From the NCBI RefSeq assembly GCF_025398335.1, contig NZ_JAODOO010000004.1, positions 248,001-312,000 on the forward strand: a DNA stretch of 64,000 nt, in the 5' to 3' direction. Both the position numbers and the translations under genes were made by a program. Of the stretch, positions 56,607-62,402 are shown one piece after another (position 1 is the first letter of the stretch; the number at the start of each line of letters is the position of its first letter). This DNA is from Clostridium sp. CX1 (lineage in GTDB: Bacteria > Bacillota > Clostridia > Clostridiales > Clostridiaceae). The notes beneath the pieces were generated by a model. The model saw only the letters and a list, made by a program, of their open reading frames with translations. It did not search any database and was not told the origin of the DNA.

Positions 56607-56644
56607 TAAATAAACCGGTTTGTATAAACCGGTTATTTATTTTG
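56606..56644. terminator. Bidirectional terminator between rpsT and holA
   Basis: AAATAAACCGGTTT / AAACCGGTTATTT around a short loop, with T-rich tails on both strands. Confidence 0.85.
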
Positions 56645-57688
56645 CTATCCAGCAATAGTATTTATTATTAATAGTTCCATTTCAGTCTTCTCATCTACAG
56701 AAGAACTTTTCATCTTTCTCTCTGCAATTAAACAAAGTTCTATAGCACGCTTAAGCTGCTTCAATGTAAACTTCTTACTCTGACCCATAAGCATGTCACA
56801 GGCATATTCTGATCTAATATTTAAGGCTTTCATTATTTCCTGCTTACTTTTCTTATTCTCAATACTTAGTTTTACTTTAAACAATAAATTAAACTGCCTT
56901 TCAATCATATTCAAAATGTAAGGTATTTTTTCTCCCTTATAAATAAGTTCATTTAAAACCTCTAAGGCATCCTTCACTCTCTTTTGAGATATTGGATTTA
57001 CTAAGTCAAATATATCATCATCATTAGCTTTTAAAAATAGAGTTTTAATATCATCCTTAGTTATCTCTCTATCCTCAACATAACAGCAAAGTTTCTCAAC
57101 TTCATTTTCTATTATGCTTAGGTTGTTATCCTCCATTAAACTAGCAAAGGCTCTTAACTCCACTTTTCCAATTTTTTTATTTCTCACTTCAAAAAAGCCT
57201 TTTATTTTCCCTTCTAATTGCTGTCCCCTTATTTTATCAGCTTTAACTACAGTAGCCTTCTTATCTAACTTATATAGCCTTTTACCTGGCTTATCCCTTT
57301 TACCTTTAAAAACATCGTATAGAATAAGTATGCAATGTGCTGGAACATTATCTACATATTCTAATACAGTATTAAAAGCCTTATCCCCTGAAAATTTATT
57401 ACTCTCTCCTCCATCATCTTCTATAAAAGAAGCTCTATATACTAAAACTACCTTTTTATCACTCATAAAAGGCACCGTTTCACAGGCATTGACTACAGTA
57501 TCAAAGCTTTCAAGAGAGTTTCCATCAAATTTTAAGTAGTTTAGTTCTAAAAAAGACTTATCTATAGTCTTATTTACTATGGATTCAATGCCCTCCTTTA
57601 TAAGTTGCTCATCATTTCCACAGAAGACATAACAATTTGATATTTTATTTTTCTTAATATTTTCATTAAAAGTACCTATATCTAACAT
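56645..57688 (-). CDS. holA: DNA polymerase III delta subunit
   Basis: Clamp-loader subunit that opens the beta ring. 347 residues: N-terminal AAA-like domain starting with SNCYVFCGNDEQLIKEGI (about 16-33), VLVYRASFIEDDGGES (about 84-99), lid and collar domains with LSIIENEVEKLCCYVED and a C-terminal LKRAIELCLIAERKMKSSSV (about 312-331). Located beside rpsT as in most Firmicutes, and downstream of comEC. Confidence 0.94.
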   Translation of the reverse strand: MLDIGTFNENIKKNKISNCYVFCGNDEQLIKEGIESIVNKTIDKSFLELNYLKFDGNSLESFDTVVNACETVPFMSDKKVVLVYRASFIEDDGGESNKFSGDKAFNTVLEYVDNVPAHCILILYDVFKGKRDKPGKRLYKLDKKATVVKADKIRGQQLEGKIKGFFEVRNKKIGKVELRAFASLMEDNNLSIIENEVEKLCCYVEDREITKDDIKTLFLKANDDDIFDLVNPISQKRVKDALEVLNELIYKGEKIPYILNMIERQFNLLFKVKLSIENKKSKQEIMKALNIRSEYACDMLMGQSKKFTLKQLKRAIELCLIAERKMKSSSVDEKTEMELLIINTIAG

Positions 57689-57729: not shown

Positions 57730-59505
57730 TCAATAAAGTTTAACTACTCTATTAAACATTATAACATATAGGTGGCAGTTTTCCTTATAATCATCATATC
57801 CATTTCTTAGAGAATTACTTAATCTGCTGCCCTGTGAAAAATTCACTGTGTCATAAGAATTAAATACCGCCAAATCTTTCCCATTCGTACTATTGTTTAT
57901 AAACATAAATCTTTCTTTCCCACTATAGATGCAAAGGTTTATTTTTTCATGATAAGGAATCACCTTTAAATACAAATCATTGTTTAACTTTATATTGACC
58001 TTTTCTTTTGGGTTAGAAATAACCTTGCTTATATTCATATACTCCTTTAAATTTATGACTTCCTTGGCACTTGCCTGATCATAATTGCATATTAATATTT
58101 TATCCGCCTTATACTTTATAACAACAGCCTCTCCCTTAAAGAAATCCATGTGATAAACCTTCGGAATAAAGCTATAAGTTCCACAAAGCATAATAAACAA
58201 TACAAAAATCGGTAGATATTTATATTGTTTATACCCTCTTTCATATAGCAAATATGATATGTAAATTATAATTAAAGCTATTCCCTCCATATATCCTAAA
58301 TAACTTACAGGAGGACATAGCCTTAAAATCAAATAGTTTGCACCTTCAATTGCAGTAAACATTAAATTTAGTATTGCACTAAAAAAACTGAATATAGGCT
58401 TTATAGAACCTACTAGTAAAGCTAAATTACCTACAATAACTATCACTGAATACATAGGAAGCAGAAATAAGTTTCCTAGTATAAAACCTCCACTAAAATT
58501 TTGAATAGTAAAAGCAGTATACGGTACTGAAAATATTTGAGAGCTTAAGGTTACACTTAAACTTTTATTTATCATTTCAGGCATTCTGTGCATCATCCTT
58601 AAGAATTTTTTATAATATATCAATATTCCTAACGTAGCTAAAACTGATAAAGTAAAACCTATATCCAGTATGTAGTATGGTTTAATAAAAAGGATAAGTA
58701 ATGCTGCAAAACTTAAGGAAGATATACCGTCATAGTTTTTACATACTGTTTTTGACAGCTTAAATATCAGTATCATTATAAAAGCCCTTACAGTTGATGC
58801 CTGAAGGCCAGTGAAAAGTATATAAATAAAAGAAACTACAATTGAGCATCTTAATCCTATTACACTTTCTAATACCTTATAAATAATAGCCATGTGAAAC
58901 CCAGAAACACTGACAGCATGAAATACTCCCATCTCCTGGAAATCACTTTTTTGACTTTTTGTTAGATACTCCGTATCACCGTAGCAAAGAGACATTACCA
59001 GAGCTGCTTTTTCTTCCCCAATACTCTCCTTATAACTATAGTATATATTTTTCTTTATATCATATAGGGTATGTATAAAGTCCTTTTTATAGGGAGTATA
59101 TTTTTCAACCTTATATGTTCCAATTATTCCTCTTGAATAATTGATTTCCTTTTTAAACTTACCACTGATTAATAGTTTTTGCCCCTCTTTTAACTTTGTT
59201 GTCTTTCCATTTAATATTAATTTTCTTCCCTTATAATTTGCTATATAATAATACCCTTTATTCTCTATAACTCTGACCTCTGCAGAGTTTGGAACCTTTA
59301 AATCAAAGTACATCATATAACTTAATGCTCCTATTAAAAAGAAAAGAATATTTATAATAAAAAATTTCTTATCTAAGGTAAAAAAGAATATAGCAAAAAG
59401 AGATGCAGTAATAACTGCACCTGCTATAATACTCTGAAAAAGCATCAAGGTGGAAATACAGCCTATAAACAGAGAAATAGCGTAATATACGATAGGTCTC
59501 TTCAT
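57730..59505 (-). CDS. comEC: ComEC/Rec2-type DNA uptake channel with degenerate C-terminal domain
   Basis: A 591-residue membrane protein of the ComEC family, which moves single-stranded DNA through the membrane in natural competence. The N-terminal OB-like extracytoplasmic domain (about 65-125) is followed by the competence domain with FHAVSVSGFHMAIIY (about 191-205), GLQASTVRAFIMILIF (about 231-246), DIGFTLSVLATLGILIYYKK and about ten membrane helices. Full-length ComECs end with a metallo-beta-lactamase domain. Here only about 130 residues remain (starting YHMDFFKGEAVVIKYKADKI), with no HxHxDH motif, so any nuclease role is lost. It overlaps the upstream small gene by four bases (ATGA). 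Confidence 0.9.
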   Translation of the reverse strand: MKRPIVYYAISLFIGCISTLMLFQSIIAGAVITASLFAIFFFTLDKKFFIINILFFLIGALSYMMYFDLKVPNSAEVRVIENKGYYYIANYKGRKLILNGKTTKLKEGQKLLISGKFKKEINYSRGIIGTYKVEKYTPYKKDFIHTLYDIKKNIYYSYKESIGEEKAALVMSLCYGDTEYLTKSQKSDFQEMGVFHAVSVSGFHMAIIYKVLESVIGLRCSIVVSFIYILFTGLQASTVRAFIMILIFKLSKTVCKNYDGISSLSFAALLILFIKPYYILDIGFTLSVLATLGILIYYKKFLRMMHRMPEMINKSLSVTLSSQIFSVPYTAFTIQNFSGGFILGNLFLLPMYSVIVIVGNLALLVGSIKPIFSFFSAILNLMFTAIEGANYLILRLCPPVSYLGYMEGIALIIIYISYLLYERGYKQYKYLPIFVLFIMLCGTYSFIPKVYHMDFFKGEAVVIKYKADKILICNYDQASAKEVINLKEYMNISKVISNPKEKVNIKLNNDLYLKVIPYHEKINLCIYSGKERFMFINNSTNGKDLAVFNSYDTVNFSQGSRLSNSLRNGYDDYKENCHLYVIMFNRVVKLY

Positions 59506-59762
59506 TGTACAATACCTTCCTTAGATAACATAGTATTATCTAATTCCAGCATTAAATTAACATTATGAGTCTGCGGGTCTATTTCCATTTCTCTTAGACG
59601 AAGCATTTCTTCTTTACCTCTCATTGTAAAATACCTCTGTACTATATCTTCCGCAAACTCCTTAGTTAGACTGTCATACATTGAAAAATAATCAACCTCA
59701 GGAATGTTTAAAAATACTATATTGCTTCCCTTTATTGCAGTATAAAAAACATTTTGGAGCAT
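59502..59762 (-). CDS. Hypothetical soluble protein (86 aa) coupled to comEC
   Basis: Not recognised. A compact, acidic protein without membrane segments or Cys motifs: SNIVFLNIPEVDYFSMYDSL and then a charged helix (QRYFTMRGKEEMLRLREMEID), with a C-terminal stretch HNVNLMLELDNTML. ATG 59762 follows GGAGGTG; a GTG four codons earlier overlaps that site. Its stop overlaps the comEC start, and the P-type ATPase-like gene ends 46 bases upstream, so the three form one transcription unit. Confidence 0.7.
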   Translation of the reverse strand: MLQNVFYTAIKGSNIVFLNIPEVDYFSMYDSLTKEFAEDIVQRYFTMRGKEEMLRLREMEIDPQTHNVNLMLELDNTMLSKEGIVQ

Positions 59763-59807: not shown

Positions 59808-62402
59808 TTAGTCATAATACTCATCTTTATTAAACTTACGAAATAGTGCTATTAGTAGCCAAACAACTATTGCTATTCCTATGTTTATCCAATAGCCCCC
59901 ATTTAGAAAGATTTTCATATCTACAGCAAATATTAAAATAGATAATTGGATAATTAAATTACATAATATAAGCACATTAGACAATCTGCTTTTGAAAAAT
60001 AACTTTTTAGAAAAGCTGTAAGTAAAAATTACTGCATTTAAATTTAAAACAGTAAAGGCAGCAGTTTTGGCAAATTCCACTCCCTGAGAATAGGTAGATA
60101 CAACAATTGCAAAAGCAGTGGCTCCCATTAGTAAACCATTAGATACAATAAAAGTCATCTTTTCTTTTATTACATTTTTATCTATAACTTGATTTACACA
60201 AGGCACTTCATGTTTATACTCCCACAACAGTACTATAGAGGATATAAATACTATTATGATATTAAACCAAAAGACTTCCTGCATAACAAAAGGTATTTCG
60301 TATTCCCATAGAGAAGATAGCATTGTAAATGCTAATATAGAGACACTGCAGGTAAGGACATAGACTATTACTTTCCTAATCATAGCCATTACTTTTCTAG
60401 CATCCTCTAGAAGATCAAGAAGTTTCATAAAATCTGTATCTACTAGAAATATATCTGTCAACTTTTTAAGTATATTACTGTTAGAGGTTGTTATACCTAC
60501 ATCTGCGCTTCTTAGAGCAGGTAGGTCTATCAACTTAGCCCCAATCATAGCTGTAGTATATCCATAACTGTTCAATGTTTTTATTATTTTTACCTTATGC
60601 TTAGAATTTATTTTTGAAAAAACGCTTATTTTTGACCCAATACGATCAAATTCTTCTTCTGCCATATTATCAATTTCTATACCAGATAAAATTTCACGGA
60701 GCTTTGATATCAATCCCATTTTTCTTCCCACTGCAAGGGCTGTAATCTTGTTATCCTCAGTTATTATCACAGGTTTTACAGATAAAACCTTGCTTTTTTT
60801 AATGGAATTCTCAGCCTCTTCTTTCAACAAGTTTTCAAACCCCATTAATCCCACAAATACTAGATTACTTTCAATATTCTCCTTAAGACTTGGTTCGTAA
60901 TTAAAGTTTCTATAGGCAAAACCTATAACAGATAAACATTCGCCTGACATAACTATATCTGCTTTTTTTATAGCATTTATATCATCCTCTGTTATTTCTA
61001 TCTCTATACCGTTCTTCATTATATGAGTGCACCTAGCTAATAAGGAATCTACAGCACCTTTGACATTTGCCCTAAAATTTTCGTCTAATGCATTTATTGT
61101 AGTCATTATTCTTCTTTCACTATCAAAAGGTATGTGAAGAACTCTTCTATGCTCTCTATCCAACTTCCTTTTGTCCAGACCACTTTGCATCCCAAATTTA
61201 ACGAGAGCTACTTCCATTAAATCATTCTTTGGGTTTGACAATTTTCCCACGTTCGTTTTTGTATCATTGCATAGTAAGCCTATGCTAGCTATTCTATATA
61301 GGTTTTGATTCTTCTCTTCATCTATATTTTCGAATACATTTTCCTCATCCGCATCAACAATTACTCCACTTGTGTATATCTTTACAGCCCTTACCTTGTC
61401 CTTTGAGAAGGAGCCTACTTTATCTGTACAAATGGCAGATACAGATGAAAACTTTTCTAAGGTGGATAGGTCTTTAAAAATTATAGAACTTTTTTCCATT
61501 TGCTTAAAGAGAATAGTAGAAATAACAGTTATTATTAAGATTATACCTTGTGGAATTCCCCCTAACAAAAATATAGCAGAGGTTTTTAGTATAGTTTCTA
61601 CTGCAGCTCCCGAATAGGCAAGAACTCCATCGATACAAACTAAGCATATGGATATAAGCAAGGTAAAATGATTTATTAATTTGTGTAATCTGTAATTAAA
61701 AGATGGCATCTCTGCTTTTTTATCAAAAAGTAATTTAACTACACTAGCTATCTGAGTACTCATTCCAACGGCTATAACGATTCCTGTTCCATTGCCATTT
61801 ACAACTACGGAAGACTTGAAAAGAATGTTTTTCATATCGGATAATGTTAATCCTTTATCCTCTACTTTTGTCTCATATTTTTCTGCTATAAAATTCTCTC
61901 CTGTAATAGAAGTTTCATTTACCCGTAGTTCATCTCCCTCTATCACCCTTAAGTCTGCAGGAACACTTTCACCTCTTCCAACAATTACGATGTCGCCTAC
62001 TACTAACTCTACAGCAGGTATTTTTAAGGTTCTTCCTTCCCTAACTACTCTAGCATATCCACTATTAAGCCTTTCAAGTTCCTTTATTCGTTTTTCTTCG
62101 TTATATTCACCAATAACTATACATGAAATATTTATTATCAATATGGTTAGTGCCGCTGCTGCCAATAAAAAGTTTCCCATATATAGAATTAAAAGAACAG
62201 AAACAATTGTTAGTAAAACCCATAATTCCTTTATTTGTTTTAAAGTAAGCTTATATATGCTTTTTGTTTTTGGTATAACTATTTTATTTTCACCATACTG
62301 AGCTCTATGGGGATTTATCTGTTCTTCGTCAAGTCCTGAGTAGATGTTGCTTTGTAATCTTTTAACAACTTCACTCCACGGATTACCATACCATTCAATC
62401 AT
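59808..62402 (-). CDS. P-type ATPase-like membrane protein with degenerate catalytic motifs (pseudoenzyme candidate)
   Basis: An 864-residue protein with the full layout of a P2-type (Ca2+/Na+-like) pump: N-terminal cation-ATPase domain, M1-M2 (about 60-97), actuator domain, M3-M4, P and N domains, and six C-terminal helices. Key motifs have drifted: DKTGTLT reads DKVGSFS (Asp327 kept), TGES reads TGEN (167-170), the M4 PEGL reads PQGI (284-287), TGD reads TED (548-550), DPPR is absent (GFENLL), and GDGVNDxPAL reads GAKLIDLPAL (621-630), losing the Mg-binding Asp and the Asn. In M6, NxxTD reads NIIIV. The N-domain motif KGA (448-450) and FDSERR are kept. ATG 62402 follows AAAGGTGA. It lies upstream of the 86-aa gene and comEC. 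The frame is intact, so it is probably a functional non-pump rather than a pseudogene. Confidence 0.88.
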   Translation of the reverse strand: MIEWYGNPWSEVVKRLQSNIYSGLDEEQINPHRAQYGENKIVIPKTKSIYKLTLKQIKELWVLLTIVSVLLILYMGNFLLAAAALTILIINISCIVIGEYNEEKRIKELERLNSGYARVVREGRTLKIPAVELVVGDIVIVGRGESVPADLRVIEGDELRVNETSITGENFIAEKYETKVEDKGLTLSDMKNILFKSSVVVNGNGTGIVIAVGMSTQIASVVKLLFDKKAEMPSFNYRLHKLINHFTLLISICLVCIDGVLAYSGAAVETILKTSAIFLLGGIPQGIILIITVISTILFKQMEKSSIIFKDLSTLEKFSSVSAICTDKVGSFSKDKVRAVKIYTSGVIVDADEENVFENIDEEKNQNLYRIASIGLLCNDTKTNVGKLSNPKNDLMEVALVKFGMQSGLDKRKLDREHRRVLHIPFDSERRIMTTINALDENFRANVKGAVDSLLARCTHIMKNGIEIEITEDDINAIKKADIVMSGECLSVIGFAYRNFNYEPSLKENIESNLVFVGLMGFENLLKEEAENSIKKSKVLSVKPVIITEDNKITALAVGRKMGLISKLREILSGIEIDNMAEEEFDRIGSKISVFSKINSKHKVKIIKTLNSYGYTTAMIGAKLIDLPALRSADVGITTSNSNILKKLTDIFLVDTDFMKLLDLLEDARKVMAMIRKVIVYVLTCSVSILAFTMLSSLWEYEIPFVMQEVFWFNIIIVFISSIVLLWEYKHEVPCVNQVIDKNVIKEKMTFIVSNGLLMGATAFAIVVSTYSQGVEFAKTAAFTVLNLNAVIFTYSFSKKLFFKSRLSNVLILCNLIIQLSILIFAVDMKIFLNGGYWINIGIAIVVWLLIALFRKFNKDEYYD

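Follow-up and report, generated by a model that had tools for sequence, protein, structure and literature searches.

The 64,000-nucleotide stretch of Clostridium sp. CX1 analysed here (contig NZ_JAODOO010000004.1, positions 248,001 to 312,000 of the forward strand; the window) carries on its minus strand, at 59808..62402, a gene for an 864-amino-acid (aa) pseudo-P-type ATPase. It is the first gene of a unit that continues with a small open reading frame (ORF), p90, and with comEC and holA. The gene starts at an ATG (62402-62400) preceded by a sequence resembling a ribosome-binding site, AGAAAGGTG, and runs open over 864 codons to its stop at 59808, in agreement with its placement in the initial annotation; an in-frame GTG could lengthen it to 62411. 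The product matches the Pfam models E1-E2_ATPase, Cation_ATPase and Cation_ATPase_N, while the HAD hydrolase model falls slightly under its cut-off (25.2 versus 26.4 bits). Its best PDB match by sequence is LMCA1 (6zhf, E 8e-96), which aligns nearly end to end over residues 5-823, and human SPCA1 aligns over residues 8-717. With the actuator (A), phosphorylation (P) and nucleotide-binding (N) domains and the ten-helix plan of P-type ATPases all present, the length, domain order and membrane plan of a P2-type pump are kept, as had been proposed.

Every substitution named in the initial annotation was found in the alignment. DKVGSFS (residues 327-333, 61404..61424, minus strand, as for all features below unless stated) replaces the phosphorylation motif DKTGTLT, and T548-E-D-N-K552 (60747..60761) stands for TGD-H-K. 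N524-LLK occupies the place where DPPR is expected, and G621-AKLI-D626 (60525..60542) replaces GDGVND. In membrane helix 4 (M4), Pro284-Gln285 (61548..61553) is found instead of Pro-Glu; in helix 6 (M6), I717-V718 lies at the Thr-Asp position, leaving the segment W712-S722 (60237..60269) without an acidic ion ligand. The genome encodes three more P2 ATPases of full length (L002, L003 and L004), which retain canonical motifs where read, indicating that the changes are specific to the gene at the comEC locus. Only the general P-type ATPase model of NCBIfam has its cut-off passed by the window protein, which scores 331.9 bits against a cut-off of 798.3 with the PMR1-type model. Annotation is thus likely to present such proteins as functional pumps.

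To place these changes in a family context, we aligned 88 pseudo orthologues, i.e., the window gene and 87 other loci from the Clostridiaceae, and compared them with 20 canonical rows. Three loci were omitted from the 88: L109, which is canonical, L138, in which the gene is split, and L216, which belongs to a second family of the same order and is cut by a contig end. Columns are labelled by what we take to be the SERCA residue numbers (e.g., R560, Thr353). All the motif residues counted are kept in 20/20 canonical rows. Among the pseudo rows, the same losses recur throughout, recurrence across clostridia being the check that the initial annotation had proposed: the Gly of TGD is lost in 88/88 and the first Asp of DPPR survives in none; the Thr after the phosphorylation-site DK (Thr353 equivalent) survives in three, as does the R560-equivalent Arg; the M4 Glu is kept in five; and an Asp or Glu is present in the M6 segment in only four (20/20 in canonical rows). 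Within GDGxND, the first Asp is found in 12/88 rows and the Asn in three. The phosphorylation-site residue itself is D in 49 rows, E in 19, K in nine, N in six, P in four, and G in one. Asp327 is therefore present in the window copy, as claimed earlier, but its retention does not hold as a trait of the family.

Some residues are nevertheless retained, namely the Lys of DK (K328, 87/88), K603 (82/88), D626 (76/88), and G449 (88/88), which could serve folding or phosphate binding. The first three, together with the Asp nucleophile in somewhat more than half of the rows and an acidic residue at the first GDGxND Asp position in 41/88, are what one would cite for a pump in which ATP hydrolysis and transport persist, with residues relocated and the mechanism changed (TED in place of TGD, and often Glu at the first GDGxND Asp). 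We regard this as very improbable, given that the nucleophile is missing in 39/88 rows, with Lys, Asn, Pro and Gly among its replacements, that the M4 and M6 acids and the R560-equivalent Arg are nearly always gone, and that the P domain and membrane parts show the lowest conservation when set against canonical pumps.

This last point emerges from sequence entropy by domain. Relative to canonical pumps, entropy was 1.12 for the N domain and 1.53 for the A domain, and it reached 3.39 and 2.37 for the two parts of the P domain and 1.79-2.50 for the membrane parts. The N domain is thus almost as well conserved as that of active pumps, indicating that constraint has moved to it and away from the regions serving catalysis and transport. 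Newly conserved residues that canonical pumps seldom or never have include R370, I374, R444, E467, R498, F500, Y502, P504, E508, N509, S512, N513, and N524. Several of these form a motif at the N-domain/hinge end, R498-N-F-N-Y-E-P-S-L-K-E-N-I-E-S-N513 in the window protein (60864..60911), whose pattern R-x-F-x-Y-x-P-x3-E-N-I-E-S-N is nearly invariant over the 88 pseudo rows, with single-letter exceptions, and absent from the canonical rows. The moderate conservation of the A domain, and the presence of three canonical P2 ATPases in the same genome, might point to a regulator of the cell's own pumps, acting, e.g., as the inactive half of a mixed dimer or by sensing Ca2+ or nucleotide. However, in the window's genome those pumps sit on other contigs or ~200 kb from the pseudo-ATPase, and the membrane parts are poorly conserved; such a role seems unlikely.

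All seven genomes of the genus, counting that of the window, have a degenerate orthologue; identity to the window protein is 55-62% in the other six, with 62% for the closest relative. The canonical close homologues that would have spoken for a decaying copy were thus not found in the genus. Profile matches of at least 683.9 bits, one per genome and above the range of canonical scores, were found in 131/206 Clostridiaceae genomes, 84 of which were read at the sequence level and 47 of which rest on the score. Reading the locus revealed five further pseudo copies (L132, L138, L143, L183 and L184), one of them split. Two of the five score 663.8 and 657.1 bits, in the canonical range that begins near 665, indicating that the score alone undercounts the family.

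Within the genomes sampled, an extension of the family beyond the Clostridiaceae was rejected. No profile match exceeded the canonical range in 19 genomes of the same order outside this family, nor outside the Clostridiaceae among 291 genomes of the class, where the best score was 661.5 bits among matches to E 1e-190. Searching 398 genomes of the phylum with the motif peptide yielded 105 and 68 bits in two Clostridiaceae genomes and at most 33 bits elsewhere. Four of the weaker matches were read: the five canonical motifs tested are all present in L245, L247 and L248, and L246 is a shorter frame of 466 aa with DKTGT and TGES.

The ratio of nonsynonymous to synonymous substitution rates (dN/dS), estimated by the Nei-Gojobori method, was 0.09-0.26 in 18/18 pairs of orthologues among relatives, the window gene being in none of the pairs. 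Because frames were taken from stop to stop, a short stretch ahead of some start codons is included. The range is similar to that of comEC (0.11-0.28, 18 pairs); gpr, a gene downstream at the locus, gave 0.02-0.14, and the pseudo-ATPase value was higher in 15/15 pairs having both. Recent decay was rejected on the grounds of the low dN/dS and of recurrence across the Clostridiaceae. Since the substitutions recur in dozens of genomes, chance or sequencing error was also excluded. Loss of catalytic residues and purifying selection on the protein, the two properties by which a pseudoenzyme is recognised, were both found.

True decay or loss does occur, as seen in the split gene of L138 and in the absence of the ATPase from 22/40 loci selected by comEC. 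This would fit a functionless relic whose frame is open only through its position at the head of an operon with holA. Nonetheless, a relic is contradicted by the dN/dS values, the new and nearly invariant N-domain motif, and the profile match above the canonical range in well over half of the family's genomes. Furthermore, the ATPase is absent beside comEC-holA in several lineages, and operon coupling therefore does not force its retention. We find this explanation hardly credible. Instead, the recurrent losses, the low dN/dS, and a constant comEC neighbour support the earlier proposal of a catalytically dead pump that selection retains in a different role.

ORFs and Pfam matches confirmed that the ATPase gene leads a unit with an 86-aa protein and a ComEC lacking its nuclease-like domain. 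The small protein, p90 (59502..59762; 86 aa if started at its ATG and 90 aa at a GTG further upstream), begins 45 bp after the ATPase stop, has a strong ribosome-binding site, GGAGGTGG, and ends in a stop that overlaps the comEC start; it had no match in Pfam or NCBIfam. ComEC (57730..59505) has only the Competence domain, the metallo-beta-lactamase region being shortened and without the metal-binding motif. The last gene of the probable operon is holA (56645..57688), encoding DNA polymerase III delta according to Pfam and NCBIfam. A terminator-like hairpin (56613..56634, both strands) lies between holA and rpsT and is a consensus match only, three such hairpins having been found in the region versus 2.6 expected by chance. 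A promoter scan was uninformative (34 sites versus 34.8 expected).

Beyond this unit, most of the genomes read also have gpr and spoIIP at this locus, and the ATPase could conceivably act with these downstream genes in sporulation or envelope building rather than with ComEC. Yet rpsT intervenes on the other strand, the hairpin follows holA, and the same gene order also occurs without the ATPase; we judge this decidedly unlikely.

The constancy of the neighbours was assessed at two sets of loci. Sixty were picked by their ATPase match, mostly from the top of the list, passing over most of the lower matches and several near-duplicate entries from a single genus. Another 40 were picked by their comEC match, mostly because no ATPase match was listed nearby, and were thus likely to be without the ATPase. 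In the first set, 59/60 loci carry the pseudo form; comEC is the next gene in 58 of these 59, and in the remaining one the contig ends before comEC. Of the neighbours, comEC is thus constant and the small protein less so: BLAST found the latter at 19/60 of these loci, as well as at loci of the order outside the Clostridiaceae, but the other six genomes of the genus gave no match. p90 lies ahead of comEC at many Clostridiales loci, including some where no ATPase was found (L145, L147, L149, L151, L205 and L214). In one draft genome (L191, G057:C43), holA directly follows the pseudo-ATPase, and comEC was matched on a different contig.

Within the Clostridiaceae, ComEC lacks the metallo-beta-lactamase domain whether the ATPase is present or absent, and by inspection of the 40 comEC-selected loci its length class does not track ATPase presence. 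A C-terminal remnant persists in ComEC, and the open frame is only 446-450 aa in seven genomes of genus g22. A ComEA-type helix-hairpin-helix match did not discriminate, being present in 224/225 genomes of the order, 210 of them over the family cut-off; that of the window's genome sits on another contig (C10). In some genomes a ComEA-like match is close upstream of the pseudo-ATPase (G135:C5:17538-17720; G003:C1:916656-916841), placing the pseudo-ATPase between comEA and comEC.

In the second family of the order, 10 of the 14 genomes fetched have a canonical P2 ATPase at the corresponding locus, upstream of their comEC (nine complete, one cut). Three of the others have no ATPase at the locus and one has both genes at contig ends. 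In each of the ten, p90 lies between the ATPase and comEC, 0.1 to 1 kb from the ATPase. At L186 (7593-8105, minus strand; genome G217) a 170-aa ORF, a membrane protein by its letters, separates the canonical ATPase from p90. Another genome of this family (G221:C1:2227815-2233293) has many stops in the ATPase match at the locus and a comEC match in two pieces. The metal motif of the metallo-beta-lactamase domain is present in 16/16 ComEC proteins of the order outside the Clostridiaceae versus 0/100 within it, three Clostridiaceae frames shorter than 440 aa having been omitted from the count; likewise, Pfam Lactamase_B was found in 5/5 versus 0/5 of the proteins scanned. Loss of DUF4131 and Lactamase_B from Clostridiaceae ComEC has already been published (Pimentel and Zhang 2018, PMC6299819). 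Given that the second family combines a canonical ATPase with a motif-bearing ComEC, the catalysis of the ATPase and the nuclease-like domain of ComEC were probably lost on the same lineage. The only canonical copies seen at the locus belong to the second family, a pattern in keeping with an active ancestor and not with recent decay.

In two trees, containing 11 and 14 of the 88 pseudo rows, the pseudo rows formed one clade (100/100) adjoining the comEC-locus pumps of the second family with moderate support (86/78 and 79/78). Taken with the shared locus, these weak trees hint at descent in place from such a pump.

Taken together, our data indicate that selection maintains a pseudo-pump beside the DNA-uptake gene comEC across much of the Clostridiaceae, and that this protein has probably become a sensor, a scaffold or a partner of other proteins. 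We think it rather likely that it is a pseudoenzyme, a non-pumping membrane scaffold whose N domain binds a ligand or a partner, the likeliest partner being ComEC. The family would most likely have a single origin in an active P2-type Ca2+-ATPase gene upstream of comEC. On the Clostridiaceae stem, the phosphorylation site, hydrolysis motifs and ion-binding carboxylates would have been lost, abolishing pumping to judge from these residues, and the membrane and P-domain sequences largely released from constraint. The N domain would have stayed constrained while gaining R370, R444, E467 and the R498-N513 motif. So rebuilt, it may bind a protein or a ligand; the ligand could be a nucleotide, bound in another pose because the R560-equivalent Arg is gone. 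Such binding could then be relayed by way of the A domain and the membrane region to a partner, most likely ComEC, which is encoded in the same unit and is itself stripped of its nuclease-like domain. A link to ComEC and a role in DNA uptake are suggested by the operon structure, by the catalytic domain lost from the neighbour, and by rate covariation across 68 genomes, in which the partial r of the ATPase was 0.474 with comEC, 0.370 with holA, and 0.168 with gpr; this last is weak evidence, since linked and fast genes share noise. The fuller proposal, that a P-type ATPase was converted once and family-wide into a non-pumping regulatory subunit whose N-domain sensor controls a nuclease-less ComEC channel through the new site, is possible but doubtful.

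Several observations weigh against the pseudoenzyme with ComEC as its partner. The covariation with comEC is only slightly above that with holA. ComEC persists without the ATPase: among the comEC-selected loci, 18/40 have a pseudo-ATPase (one split) and the other 22 have none, and four further Clostridiaceae comEC loci (L217-L220) have no adjacent pseudo copy, with L217 and L218 carrying a canonical pump of another subgroup ~7.5 kb upstream. Because the order comEC-holA-rpsT-gpr is common outside the Clostridiaceae, the linkage to comEC may be inertia from an active-pump ancestor. As for that ancestry, approximately unbiased (AU) tests did not reject other placements (p 0.303, 0.241, 0.162, 0.056; 0.139, 0.331), and a quick tree with 28 pseudo rows and one wrong row (a wrong ORF for L185) put the pumps of the second family with the other canonical pumps. 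Within the N domain, the adenine-stacking Phe and the Lys of KGA are variable among the 88 rows. The AlphaFold model is weak in the N-domain core (predicted local distance difference test score <50 at 419-449 and 504-511), such that spatial clustering of the new residues is not mappable.

Pseudoenzymes are well studied among kinases and proteases. In titles and the beginnings of abstracts in the open-access literature, no inactive P-type ATPase family was described among the matches listed, and this would be a pseudoenzyme in a superfamily where none was found. If the regulatory-subunit proposal is true, no pseudo-P-type ATPase family would, as far as this literature was searched, have been described before, and a DNA-uptake channel would have gained a component of a new kind. 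The canonical pump that occupies this locus in the second family would offer a natural before-and-after pair for the change from transporter to non-transporter, and the new N-domain motif a short list of residues to test.

Among known systems, the window protein resembles the P2A Ca2+-ATPases (LMCA1 lmo0841, SPCA1/PMR1, SERCA) in length, domain order, fold and near end-to-end alignment, but differs from them in having lost the catalytic, hydrolysis and ion-binding residues. The comEC-locus pumps of the second family (L186, L201-L204, L208, L209, L212 and L213; L216 is cut) occupy the same place upstream of p90-comEC-holA and are nearest in the two trees; they differ in having full DKTGT, TGD, GDGVND, DPPR and PEGL and in being without the R-x-F-x-Y-x-P motif, and the ComEC beside them keeps its metallo-beta-lactamase motif, unlike that of the Clostridiaceae. 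The ComEC of the window shows the domain losses reported for Clostridiaceae ComEC, which has the Competence domain only; the word ATPase does not occur in the main text of that report (PMC6299819). Finally, the window protein shares with pseudokinases and other pseudoenzymes a conserved fold, missing catalytic residues and retention by selection; a word search of the main text of the review that describes them found neither "transporter" nor "ATPase" (PMC10211241).
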